A stretch of DNA of 64,000 nucleotides from an uncultured Verrucomicrobiota bacterium (lineage in GTDB: Bacteria > Verrucomicrobiota > Kiritimatiellia > CAIVKH01). Positions 1,326 to 33,537 of the stretch are shown here, piece after piece. Within the stretch, counting starts at the first letter, position 1, and each line of letters begins with the position of its first letter. The translations under genes and the position numbers were made by a program. The notes beneath the pieces are model-generated. The model saw only the letters and a program-made list of their open reading frames with translations. It was not told the origin of the DNA and searched no databases. The stretch covers positions 1 to 64,000 of the forward strand of contig CALMUP010000051.1 of assembly GCA_937872895.1 (NCBI GenBank). Reading direction: 5' to 3'.

Positions 1326-1413
1326 GACGCCACTATGCGGAACCCCCCGCCAAGATTCAACCGCCAACATAACCCCGCCAGCCAAGAAACGTGGTTCATG
1401 TCCATCCAGAAGA

Positions 1414-7127: not shown

Positions 7128-7421
7128 TCATGCCTGGGTCTGGAAATGATCCACCCAGCAATCGGCCACGAACGACTCCATGCCGGGGGGAATCACCGCG
7201 CGTTTCCAGTCGTCGCCCGCAAACCGGACCAGGGCGTCCTCCCCCGTCCAGTTCGTCAGCAGCAGGTAATCATCCGGCGTCCATTTCGTCGGATACCCGA
7301 CGACGTGGGAAAGATACCCCTCCTTCCCTTTCACCAACGGAACCGACACCTCCCGAAACGCCCGCTCAAACTCCGCCCGAAACGCCGGAACAATCCGCAC
7401 CCGAAAAATCCGTGTAATCAT
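7128..7421 (-). CDS. Antibiotic-biosynthesis-monooxygenase-fold (ABM) protein
   Basis: A 97-residue ferredoxin-like alpha/beta-barrel domain protein of the ABM type: ITRIFRVRIVPAFRAEFERA opens the first strand-helix unit, and YLLLTNWTGEDALVRFAGDD is the typical 'W' strand and helix. Start 7421 is set by the strong GGAGGAGG ribosome site; the longer frame to 7541 only reads through repeat DNA. Relatives include small heme- or quinol-processing monooxygenases and stress proteins that work as dimers. The substrate is unknown. Confidence 0.8.
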   Translation of the reverse strand: MITRIFRVRIVPAFRAEFERAFREVSVPLVKGKEGYLSHVVGYPTKWTPDDYLLLTNWTGEDALVRFAGDDWKRAVIPPGMESFVADCWVDHFQTQA

Positions 7422-7441
7422 GAAAACCTCCTCCGCCCCCC

Positions 7442-7498
7442 GCCTCCCCACCCACCCGCCGTAAACCCCCGTTTCAGCCACGAAAAGCGCCGCCAAGG
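7442..7498. repeat. Repeat phrase shared with 5302-5354
   Basis: CCTCCCCACCCACC, a short variable stretch, then CCCGTTTCAGCCACGAAAAG and CGCCGCCAAGGGCGG. Same architecture as the copy at 5302, again just before a recurrent GATGGTGACCGTCG element. Confidence 0.8.
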
Positions 7499-29356: not shown

Positions 29357-30739
29357 TCACGTCGTGCGCCACGGCAGCAGGTTGCAGGTGCGCATCCACA
29401 GCCAGCGCAGGATCTCGCGGGCCGGGATGGATTTCGCCTCCTGCACGGGCGCGAGCAGCCACCACGCCTGCATGCGCAGGAAGCCCGACAGGGCGAACAA
29501 GCTGTGGTAGCCGGTCCAGTGGAACGAGCCGATCCAGGTTTCGTGCTGCAGCAACCAGTCGAGCAGCACACCCGAAAACAGGCCCGCGCAAAAACCGGCC
29601 ACCCCGGTGACCGCGCCGATGACCGACAGGTAGATCATGCGCTTCGCGCGCGGCGCGGTGACCACGCTGAGGTTGAACATCGCGGCGTTGATGCCGCCCC
29701 ACGACAAGGCATCCATCAGGCCGCTGAGCCAGATGAACCCGAGATGACCCGGCGTGGCGAGGATCCAGCAGGCCGGATGCGCGGAACCGGCGAGAAAGGT
29801 CGTCACCTTCAGGACCTGCTTGTGGCCGACCCGGTCGGCCACCCGCCCCCACCAGGAACCGATGATCAACGTCGCCACCGAGGCGATCGCCGTCCAGATC
29901 GCCAACTGGGTGAAACTCATCTTCAGGTGGGAAATGAAGTACGGGATGACAAAGGGTGCGGCCAGCATGACCGAGGCGTTCCAGTATACCGCGAAGAGCA
30001 GGAACCGCCGGAAATTGCGGTCGCGGAAGGGCTCGGCGATCGTGGCCAGCAGGGCGTTTTCCGGCCGGGCCAGCTTCGGTTCGTAATGGAAGCTGTAGAG
30101 GCGGATCCCGATCAGGGCGAACACCACCGCGATCAGCAGGACCATCTGGAAACTGGCCGGCGCGGGGGTGTGGTCGAGGAACCAGCCCGCGGCGAAACCG
30201 GAGGCCATGCCGACCATGCCCATCCATCCGTTGCGCAGCCCGAAGTAGCGGCCCCGCGAGGCATCCGGCACCACATCGGCCATCAACGAGGCCCAGGCCG
30301 GACCGAGTCCGCTCTGGAAAAAGGAGGAGAAGCACACGACGGCGATCAGGATCGCCGGCACCCGCGCCGGGTCCACCGCGAACAACGGCAGCAGGACCGG
30401 CACCAGCCAGACCAGGCGGCCGAGCAGGCCGGCCACGATCATGAACTGCTTGCGCGAACTCAGGCTGGCCACCAGCCACGAGGTCACCGGATTCAACACC
30501 TGCATCAGCATCGGAATGCTCACCACGGCGGCGAGTTGCTGCGGGGTCGCGCCGGCATGGAGCATCAAGCCGGCCAGCACGCTGCCCGAGGTCCAGACGA
30601 GGAACACCTGGGTGAAACTGCCCTCGATGAGCGACAGGCCGAGGGTGCGGCGGACCCGCTGCTCGGCGAGCAGGTCGGGCTTCAGGTGGTCCGGCACGCC
30701 GTCGGGCGCCGGTGTCGAACTGACCGTGACCTCCGGCAT
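29357..30739 (-). CDS. MFS transporter, 12 helices
   Basis: A 460-residue major facilitator with about 12 hydrophobic segments. The loop 2-3 region has SWLVASLSSRKQFMIVAG and the second half has WWGRVADRVGHKQVL, a recognisable MFS loop motif. LMADVVPDASRGRYFGLRNG is typical of the group without a clear substrate. It begins two bases after the stop of the peptidase gene at 30742, so the two are co-transcribed. Confidence 0.85.
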   Translation of the reverse strand: MPEVTVSSTPAPDGVPDHLKPDLLAEQRVRRTLGLSLIEGSFTQVFLVWTSGSVLAGLMLHAGATPQQLAAVVSIPMLMQVLNPVTSWLVASLSSRKQFMIVAGLLGRLVWLVPVLLPLFAVDPARVPAILIAVVCFSSFFQSGLGPAWASLMADVVPDASRGRYFGLRNGWMGMVGMASGFAAGWFLDHTPAPASFQMVLLIAVVFALIGIRLYSFHYEPKLARPENALLATIAEPFRDRNFRRFLLFAVYWNASVMLAAPFVIPYFISHLKMSFTQLAIWTAIASVATLIIGSWWGRVADRVGHKQVLKVTTFLAGSAHPACWILATPGHLGFIWLSGLMDALSWGGINAAMFNLSVVTAPRAKRMIYLSVIGAVTGVAGFCAGLFSGVLLDWLLQHETWIGSFHWTGYHSLFALSGFLRMQAWWLLAPVQEAKSIPAREILRWLWMRTCNLLPWRTT

Positions 30740-30741
30740 GG

Positions 30742-31602
30742 TCAGCGCACGAACTTTTCAAATGCCTTGGCAAACTCGGACAGCGAGGCCACTCCGTAGT
30801 GCTGGGCCAATGCGGGCTCGACCGGCATGCCCTTCGACATGTCGGCGAGGAACGGCTCGAACTTCTCGGGCGGGTAATTCAACTGCAGGAAACCAACGAG
30901 GAATTTCGAGGTGTCGTAGAACGCCCGCACGGCGCGCGGATCGGCCGGATAGGTGGTCATACCGAGCAGCGACTCGACGGGATAGACGGTCGGGATGCGG
31001 CGGAAGACCTGCCGCTTGCTCTTCTTGATCCCCTTGAACGCCGAGTAGGCGAATTCGCCGTACCACTCGGCCGTGCCTTCGTTCAGCCACACCGGAATGC
31101 GGCCGGGATAGAACCGGTTGAAGACCAGGTGGGTCATCTCATGGCCGAGCACCGACGCGCTATCACCGGTCGAGTCGGCCTGCTGCAGGTACATGACCAT
31201 GCCGTTGACCATCGAGAACGCCCACTCGATGCTCACCTCGTAGGTCTGGATGAAATGCTTCCAATCCTTCTCGTCACGGAAGATGAAAATATGGCTGCGC
31301 CCGTTCATCTGATCGGTCGCCGAGGTCAGGTCCTTGGCGATAAAGCCATAAAAGAACTCGGCCTGCCGCGCGACCTTCGCGGCAAACATCTTCCGCTCGT
31401 AGTGGATTACGAAATGCTCGGTGTGGGCATGAAGCCACTTGAACCTCGGGTCATCCAGCAAACGGTGCCCCATCGGACTCAACAAGGCCGTGTCCACCTC
31501 GTCGCGCGTCACATCGGTCCAGTCATCCTGCGGCGTCTGCGCCTGCGCCACACCCACGCCCACGAAAACCGCCATCGCCCAGACAAACCGTACCATGTTC
31601 AT
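30742..31602 (-). CDS. Secreted gluzincin peptidase (Peptidase MA-like)
   Basis: A 286-residue protein with a signal peptide (VRFVWAMAVFVGVGVAQAQ). Zinc motif GHEMTHLVFNRF supplies HExxH, and the third ligand is the Glu of VWLNEGTAEWYGE 20-odd residues later: the gluzincin arrangement of Peptidase MA-like/DUF1570 proteins. The N-terminal HFVIHYERKMFAAKVARQAE matches the usual opening of this family. Likely periplasmic or secreted, substrate unknown. A terminator-like hairpin lies about 65-95 bases upstream of its start. Confidence 0.85.
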   Translation of the reverse strand: MNMVRFVWAMAVFVGVGVAQAQTPQDDWTDVTRDEVDTALLSPMGHRLLDDPRFKWLHAHTEHFVIHYERKMFAAKVARQAEFFYGFIAKDLTSATDQMNGRSHIFIFRDEKDWKHFIQTYEVSIEWAFSMVNGMVMYLQQADSTGDSASVLGHEMTHLVFNRFYPGRIPVWLNEGTAEWYGEFAYSAFKGIKKSKRQVFRRIPTVYPVESLLGMTTYPADPRAVRAFYDTSKFLVGFLQLNYPPEKFEPFLADMSKGMPVEPALAQHYGVASLSEFAKAFEKFVR

Positions 31603-31645
31603 GGATTCAGCCTAGGCAAGTTCCCGTTTGTCCGAAAGCACGAAC

Positions 31646-31860
31646 CCCGGCTTCCGGATAAAAAGAAGCCGGGCGGGAGCTTGCGCTCCCGCCCGGCGTG
31701 GGGTGTTGCCGTGGATCGGGGGGGATCGGCACGGCGGACCGGGAGGGGGGCCCGGTCATGTTCGGTTCGAACAAATTGGTCATCAAAGAACAACTCGATG
31801 TTCAATCAATCAAGATCAAAGATCGATTTAGTTAAGCGATTTAATAGATAGCTCTATAGA
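31646..31860 (-). ncRNA. Candidate small RNA with two C6-loop hairpins and a GCAA-capped terminator
   Basis: Read on the minus strand. An AT-rich start region (about 31860-31765, with CTCTATAGAG) is followed by three hairpins. Hairpin 1 (31757-31737): GACCGGG, loop CCCCCCT, CCCGGTC. Hairpin 2 (31735-31708): GCCGTG and GATC arms around a run of six C, then GATC and CACGGC. Hairpin 3 (31697-31668): GCCGGGCGGGAGC, loop GCAA, GCTCCCGCCCGGC, then TTCTTTTTA. Loops of pure C can pair with GGAGG ribosome sites, as in known regulatory RNAs. It could instead be a leader of the peptidase gene: the terminator's 3' arm can also pair with GAAGCCGGG just downstream. Confidence 0.5.
31658..31697 (-). terminator. 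Strong rho-independent terminator
   Basis: A perfect 13-base-pair stem (31668-31680 with 31685-31697) capped by a four-base loop, followed on the minus strand by a T-rich run (the ATAAAAAGAA stretch 31658-31667 of the plus strand). No protein gene on the minus strand ends nearby, which is why an RNA gene is proposed upstream of it. Confidence 0.88.
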
Positions 31861-32004
31861 GTCCGCTTGTCGAGCAGTTTTTTACAGATTCTTTCAAAAT
31901 CGTGGAACACAGTACGGGACAAGCAGTTGCCATGATCGGTCGGCCTCGAACGGGATCGGGAAGCAGGCTGTTGCAGGGTATGGTGGCCGTGGTAGCGTAC
32001 GGAT

Positions 32005-33537
32005 GTGAGCGACGAGGAACCCAAAGCCGGAGGCATCCGGGAGAAACTGGCGGGCTTGCCGGACAAGCCGGGCGTGTATTTCATGCGTGACGGCAACGGG
32101 CGGATCATCTACGTCGGCAAGGCGGCGTCGCTGCGCAACCGGGTCCGCACCTACTTCCAGCCGTCGACCCTGCACAAGGCGGAGCCGAAGTTGCGCGGAT
32201 TGATCAAGAGCATCGCCGACTTCGAGTACCTGGTGGTGCGCAGCGAGGCGGAAGCGCTGGTGACGGAAAACCGGATGATCAAGGAGTTCCGGCCGCACTA
32301 CAACAAGGCGCTGAAGGACGACAAGCGGTTCCTCTTGCTGCGGGTGCATCCGGAGGATCCGTTCCCCCGTTTCGAGACCTGCCGCATCAAGAAGAACGAC
32401 GGGGCGATCTACCTCGGTCCGTTTGTGCGGCCCGGTTCGGCGCGTTGCGTGGTGGAATACCTCGAGAAGGAATTCGGCCTGCGCTCGTGTCCGCCGCGCG
32501 TGCCCGGCGAGGAGCATTACCGTCATTGCCACAACGACGTTATCCGGTTTTGCTCCGCGCCCTGCATGGGCCGGATCAGCGCGGAGGCGTACCGCACCCG
32601 GGTGATGGAGGCGGTGGCGCTGGTGAAAGGCGAGCGGCGCGACCACCTGGAGCGGCTGAAGCGCGAGATGGAGGAGGCCTCTGCGGCGATGGAGTTCGAG
32701 CGGGCGGCGGTGTTGCGCGATGTGAGCTCGGCCTTGTGGTCGGCGATCCGCGAATTCAGCAAGGGCATGAAGGATCTGGAGATCCGCACCGAGGAGGCGC
32801 GGCGCGGCACGGTGGAGCTGCAGCGGATCCTCGGACTCCCCGGCCCGGCGGCGCTGATCGAGTGCTTCGACAATTCGAACATTTCCGGAACCCATGCGGT
32901 GTCGGCGATGGTGGCGGCGGTGAACGGGGTCCCCCACCCCCAGCGGTACCGGCACTACCGGATCAAGTCGGTCGAGGGCATCGACGACCCGGCGATGATG
33001 GCCGAGGCGGTGGGCCGCCGGTACCGGCGGTTGCTGGACGAACACAAGCCGTTGCCCGACCTCGTGTTGATCGATGGCGGCGTGACCCAGCTCAAGGCGG
33101 CGCGCGAGGCGCTGGCGTCGCTGGGCATCACCAGCTTGCCGACGGCGGGACTGGCCAAGCGGTTCGAGGAGATCCATGTCGCGACCGATTTCGCCACGCC
33201 ACCGATCCGGTTGCCGATGGACTCCGATGCGTTGAAGGTGCTGCAGCGCCTCCGCGACGAGGCGCACCGGTTCTCCCTGGCCTACCACCGCACGCTGCGG
33301 GCGCGGAAGATCCGCGAGTCGGTGCTCGATGAGATCGAGGGCATCGGCGCCAAGCGCAAGGAGGTCCTGATCAAGCACTTTGGCTCGGTGTTGCGGCTGG
33401 CCCGCGCCCCGGTCGAGGCGATCGCCGCCGCACCAGGCATCGGCCCGGTCATGGCTGCGTTGATCAAGGAGCAGCTGGGGGCACGGCTGAAGCGGACGGC
33501 CGCGCGGTATCCGTTGGATTCATCGACCACCGAGTGA
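32005..33537 (+). CDS. uvrC: Excinuclease ABC subunit C
   Basis: A 510-residue UvrC, the dual-incision nuclease of nucleotide excision repair. Domains in order: GIY-YIG endonuclease (PGVYFMRDGNGRIIYVGKAA), a UVR/UvrB-contact helix pair (LKREMEEASAAMEFERAAVL), the RNase-H-like nuclease (LIECFDNSNISGTHAVSAMV, then LVLIDGGVTQLKAA), and C-terminal helix-hairpin-helix motifs (EIEGIGAKRKEVLIKHFGS, AAAPGIGPVMAALI). Somewhat shorter than common 600-residue homologues but complete. GTG start at 32005, because the neighbouring ATG is followed at once by a stop. Confidence 0.95.
   Translation: MSDEEPKAGGIREKLAGLPDKPGVYFMRDGNGRIIYVGKAASLRNRVRTYFQPSTLHKAEPKLRGLIKSIADFEYLVVRSEAEALVTENRMIKEFRPHYNKALKDDKRFLLLRVHPEDPFPRFETCRIKKNDGAIYLGPFVRPGSARCVVEYLEKEFGLRSCPPRVPGEEHYRHCHNDVIRFCSAPCMGRISAEAYRTRVMEAVALVKGERRDHLERLKREMEEASAAMEFERAAVLRDVSSALWSAIREFSKGMKDLEIRTEEARRGTVELQRILGLPGPAALIECFDNSNISGTHAVSAMVAAVNGVPHPQRYRHYRIKSVEGIDDPAMMAEAVGRRYRRLLDEHKPLPDLVLIDGGVTQLKAAREALASLGITSLPTAGLAKRFEEIHVATDFATPPIRLPMDSDALKVLQRLRDEAHRFSLAYHRTLRARKIRESVLDEIEGIGAKRKEVLIKHFGSVLRLARAPVEAIAAAPGIGPVMAALIKEQLGARLKRTAARYPLDSSTTE

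Follow-up and report, generated by a model that had tools for sequence, protein, structure and literature searches.

Our analysis points to a candidate small RNA with two C-rich loops on the minus strand of a Kiritimatiellia genome, in the 402-bp gap between uvrC (32005..33537, plus strand) and a divergently oriented gene for a secreted peptidase-like protein (30742..31602, minus strand; weak Peptidase_MA_2 match). The 64-kb stretch of DNA that was analysed, referred to here as the window, is contained in a 3.87-Mb, 51-contig genome that is 95% complete. Among named sequences, the nearest relatives of its UvrC come from Kiritimatiellia/Kiritimatiellae MAGs. We consider it plausible, with a likelihood a little short of even, that the element is a trans-acting, stand-alone and intrinsically terminated C-loop sRNA; its transcription, its action in trans and its targets are the parts of this reading that we infer. 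According to this model, an sRNA of ~100-180 nt would be transcribed leftwards from the uvrC/peptidase gap and end at an intrinsic terminator, and either of its C6 loops would start pairing with G-runs in or near the ribosome-binding sites of a few mRNAs. Such pairing would block translation in trans and without Hfq, as in the actinobacterial 6C/B11 RNAs. In favor of this reading are the two C6 loops, which are exposed at the ends of stable stems and, together with a strong terminator, go far beyond shuffled sequence, as well as the absence of a coding signal and the fact that the terminator serves no protein gene. Against it stand the lack of a homologue, the lack of a convincing promoter and the small number of obvious targets.

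Two hairpins and a terminator follow one another in close succession on the minus strand. The first hairpin, HP1 (31737..31757; GACCGGG-CCCCCCT-CCCGGTC), has a 7-bp GC-rich stem and a 7-nt loop of six C and one T (CCCCCCT, 31750-31744). The second, HP2 (31708..31735; GCCGTG-CC-GATC-CCCCCC-GATC-CACGGC), has 10 bp with a 2-nt bulge, and its arms GCCGTGCCGATC and GATCCACGGC enclose a loop of exactly six C (CCCCCC, 31723-31718). The intrinsic terminator (31660..31697; GCCGGGCGGGAGC-GCAA-GCTCCCGCCCGGC-TTCTTTTT) combines a perfect 13-bp stem and a GCAA loop with a TTCTTTTT tail; it was also recovered by a consensus terminator scan and is likely to mark the 3' end of the RNA. The initial annotation had described this arrangement of twin C6-loop hairpins followed by a 13-bp GCAA-capped terminator and a T-run, and direct reading and folding both bear it out. 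It was also correct that no protein gene ends there, the neighbor on that side being uvrC on the plus strand. Long poly-C/poly-G tracts occur elsewhere (G000 contigs C1:1-97, C13:1-49 and C20 near 93920-93953, and the contig of L033 in G001), several of them at contig ends, and have the look of artefacts of sequencing or assembly. The element's own C6 runs differ from these tracts, because they are located in the interior of a 100-kb contig and are enclosed by complementary stems.

The 106-nt segment at 31760-31655 has a minimum free energy of -60.0 kcal/mol, compared with -34.1 +/- 3.1 for its shuffles (z -8.4), and a single structure makes up 88% of the ensemble. When the terminator is left out, the twin hairpins fold at -25.9 versus -14.7 +/- 2.2 kcal/mol (z -5.0), a result equalled by none of 200 shuffles; taken one at a time, the hairpins stand out less (z -1.3 and -2.4, for pieces each one outer base pair short). 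Order-3 Markov sequence modelled on the window (20 Mb) contained only two twin C6 stem-loops, giving an expectation of ~0.013 per 128 kb of strand even before a terminator is required. This null was set up once the feature had been seen, and it thus serves as a guide rather than as a formal test. The element is the sole twin C6 stem-loop in the window. A stricter scan for twin C5+ pairs with contiguous stems of at least 5 bp, which skips the element itself because the inner stem of HP2 is 4 bp, found none in the window and a further 400 kb of the genome.

The A+T-rich 5' part of the element (31758..31870, minus strand) probably represents a promoter and/or the 5' end of the RNA. GC content across ~31750-31900 is 33-37%, as opposed to 63% for the window, and the fold is weak (z -2.0). 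The 5' part contains a weak AU-rich hairpin and an inverted repeat, TGTTCGAACCGAACA (31773-31759). Such A+T richness fits a promoter region; no convincing sigma-70 promoter was found on the minus strand, where the best candidates did not reach the 95th percentile for blocks of equal length. Open reading frames crossing the element have coding scores that are negative or near zero, and it does not look coding. A small proline-rich leader peptide was rejected on its negative coding score.

What such loops might bind depends on the leaders that the genome has to offer. The organism had been credited with strong GGAGG-type Shine-Dalgarno sites; GGAGG does occur, but in only 47 of the 337 Shine-Dalgarno zones of predicted genes considered (~464 kb), and GGGGGG occurs in none. 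Because of these frequencies, the C6 loops are not generic Shine-Dalgarno blockers, and rare G-run leaders would be needed; obvious targets are few because G6 is missing from all 337 zones. In a target search with the C6 loops, as the initial annotation had proposed, two leaders with G6 ranked best within the window. Among its 47 leaders, whose median is -5.3 kcal/mol, the strongest loop duplexes were those of ruvB (-14.4) and the gene starting at 7421 (-14.2). These values rest on a naive duplex model in which accessibility plays no part, and any G-run will pair with a short stretch of C. In the candidate ruvB leader (1326..1350, minus strand), G6 precedes the start codon (ATG at 1325) by ~17 nt; in that of the second gene, which encodes an ABM domain (7422..7451, minus strand), it precedes the start codon (ATG at 7421) by ~15 nt and is accompanied by a GGAGG site. 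With its extreme richness in G (GGGTGGGTGGGGAGGCGGGGGGCGGAGGAGG), the latter leader could fold into a G-quadruplex that covers the ribosome-binding site. No Hfq homologue was found in the 95% complete genome, which is compatible with the chaperone-independent mode of action that Mai et al. (2019) announce in their title.

The element is an orphan without a detectable relative. A DNA search of 97 relatives returned short chance matches only, and a full model (R1) run on 58 genomes gave two weak, terminator-driven matches without C-loops. With a hairpin-only model (R2) and 346 genomes of the class, none of the best 20 matches, which were inspected, had twin C-loops followed by a terminator. The hairpin-only model, run with laxer filters on the seven other family members, yielded nothing convincing, no homologue was detected in the one other genome of the genus (92% complete), and plasmid and phage collections gave no match. 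Within the same genome, no convincing paralogue was present among the matches listed, and the count of the twin-C6 pattern was dominated by poly-C tracts, several of them at contig ends. Since the genome search scores only so many preliminary candidates in each genome, and since the same-genus genome is 92% complete, we regard the absence of homologues in relatives as likely rather than certain. Because there is no homologue in genus, family or class, there is neither covariation nor loop conservation to draw on. Conservation of the C-loops in relatives, by which the initial annotation would have had itself judged, was therefore not borne out. Its proposal of a trans-acting translational repressor agrees very well with the anatomy of the element, but no relative with conserved loops stands behind it.

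The surroundings of the element bear on the alternatives. In two related genera (G004 and G005), the peptidase gene directly follows uvrC, adjacent and colinear, and in the same-genus genome the two genes are on different contigs. The intergenic region that holds the element is thus probably lineage-specific. More broadly, the divergent order at 29357-33537 of the window has the appearance of a broken ancestral cluster. These observations lend some weight to the idea that the element is mainly a terminator or insulator halting leftward transcription, whether uvrC-antisense or spurious, before the peptidase gene, with the C-loop hairpins as incidental GC-rich structure in a rearranged region. 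No other single part is as strong as the terminator, the broken uvrC-peptidase order of G004/G005 makes it probable that the region is new to this lineage, and the hairpins are kept in no relative. We nevertheless think this account fairly unlikely, as the twin hairpins by themselves are well beyond their shuffles and twin C6 loops are rare. A cis-acting leader of the peptidase gene, either an attenuator or a riboswitch, is improbable. The element does share the strand of that gene and lies 58 nt upstream of its ATG, and a 50-codon frame (31759-31607), in which the C-runs are Pro-Pro codons, ends just before this ATG; its coding likelihood, however, is -9.6. The initial annotation had also suggested attenuation, since GAAGCCGGG downstream can pair with the 3' arm of the terminator (9 bp, -15.6 kcal/mol). 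This pairing is much weaker than the local fold of the terminator (-39.3 kcal/mol), and GAAGCCGGG lies downstream of the T-run. The pairing fails as an antiterminator because GAAGCCGGG is made too late to influence termination, and this order, wrong for co-transcriptional attenuation, led us to reject it. The suggestion is further weakened by the same-genus peptidase orthologue, which lacks such a leader and is instead preceded by a gene resembling a polyprenyl synthase (assigned by eye), by the two class-level orthologues examined (L065 and L067), upstream of which no leader was seen, and by G004 and G005, in which the peptidase gene comes directly after uvrC. No Rfam riboswitch matched at the element. 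The sequence from the terminator tail to the region before the peptidase gene also forms an exact 9-bp inverted repeat, CCCGGCTTC-N10-GAAGCCGGG (31645-31673, minus strand), which could serve the peptidase promoter as a DNA operator.

Membership of a C-loop sRNA in the SOS regulon is suggested by the facts that a role in the SOS response has been reported for the 6C RNA of Corynebacterium glutamicum (PMC6582537, with reference to Pahlke 2016), that uvrC adjoins the element, that the ruvB leader carries G6 and that the inverted repeat TGTTCGAACCGAACA sits just upstream of HP1. We consider it highly improbable. The palindromes upstream of two LexA homologues (CTATACATCTGTATAG and GTGAACGATCGTTCAC) differ from the TGTTCGAACCGAACA repeat and neither is found upstream of the RNA, so that SOS control is unsupported, and on this disagreement LexA control was rejected. 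The genome has further copies of the TGTTC-N5-GAACA form, and in the contexts inspected most of them lie in what seems to be coding sequence. As a separate observation, CTATACATCTGTATAG belongs to the main LexA (L210), and the second LexA-like regulator (L211; G000:C9:367892-368440) has the Gram-positive-type GAAC-N4-GTTC palindrome GTGAACGATCGTTCAC in front of it, possibly reflecting two LexA circuits with different boxes.

Returning to the stand-alone C-loop sRNA, two known RNAs invite comparison. BjrC68 (RF02353), an sRNA of Bradyrhizobiaceae, matches the GCAA-capped terminator hairpin below threshold, with 27.1 bits against a cut-off of 39; the similarity is owed to the terminator, and the twin C-loops of the element lie outside it. 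The closer parallel is 6C RNA (RF01066), which is defined by a pair of stem-loops that typically carry six C each (PMC4046766), and is an actinobacterial RNA conserved close to Ms1 RNA (PMC6582537). In B11 of Mycobacterium abscessus, either C-loop alone is enough for repression of a reporter whose 5' UTR contains G6, and repression is lost only in the double loop mutant (PMC10470900). By sequence and structure model, the element is not a member of this family. RF01066 gave nothing at E <= 10 on the 351 nt around it, no match at the gathering score in the window, and no match among the 150 of 893 candidates scored for the whole genome, a search of limited sensitivity in that the C. glutamicum 6C itself came out only below the cut-off. 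The element, without a covariance-model match or a homologue in any relative, belongs to Kiritimatiellia and lies beside uvrC and the peptidase gene, outside the Actinobacteria and the Ms1 region that are home to 6C. It may even be a convergent, non-homologous counterpart of 6C in Kiritimatiellota: a twin C-loop repressor that works without Hfq, that arose recently in one lineage where a rearrangement left a breakpoint next to uvrC, and that has ruvB among its targets. This fuller scenario is quite unlikely. What we describe is a well-formed orphan prediction and a modest finding. A full-text search of a literature collection for small RNA in Kiritimatiellota found nothing, and the element, if transcribed, would provide a lead for sRNA regulation in that phylum. 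It shares with 6C/B11 two neighboring stem-loops that expose about six C each, an intergenic, stand-alone layout and the same size range, and its transcription would mean that bacteria other than Actinobacteria can evolve the twin C6-loop design on their own.
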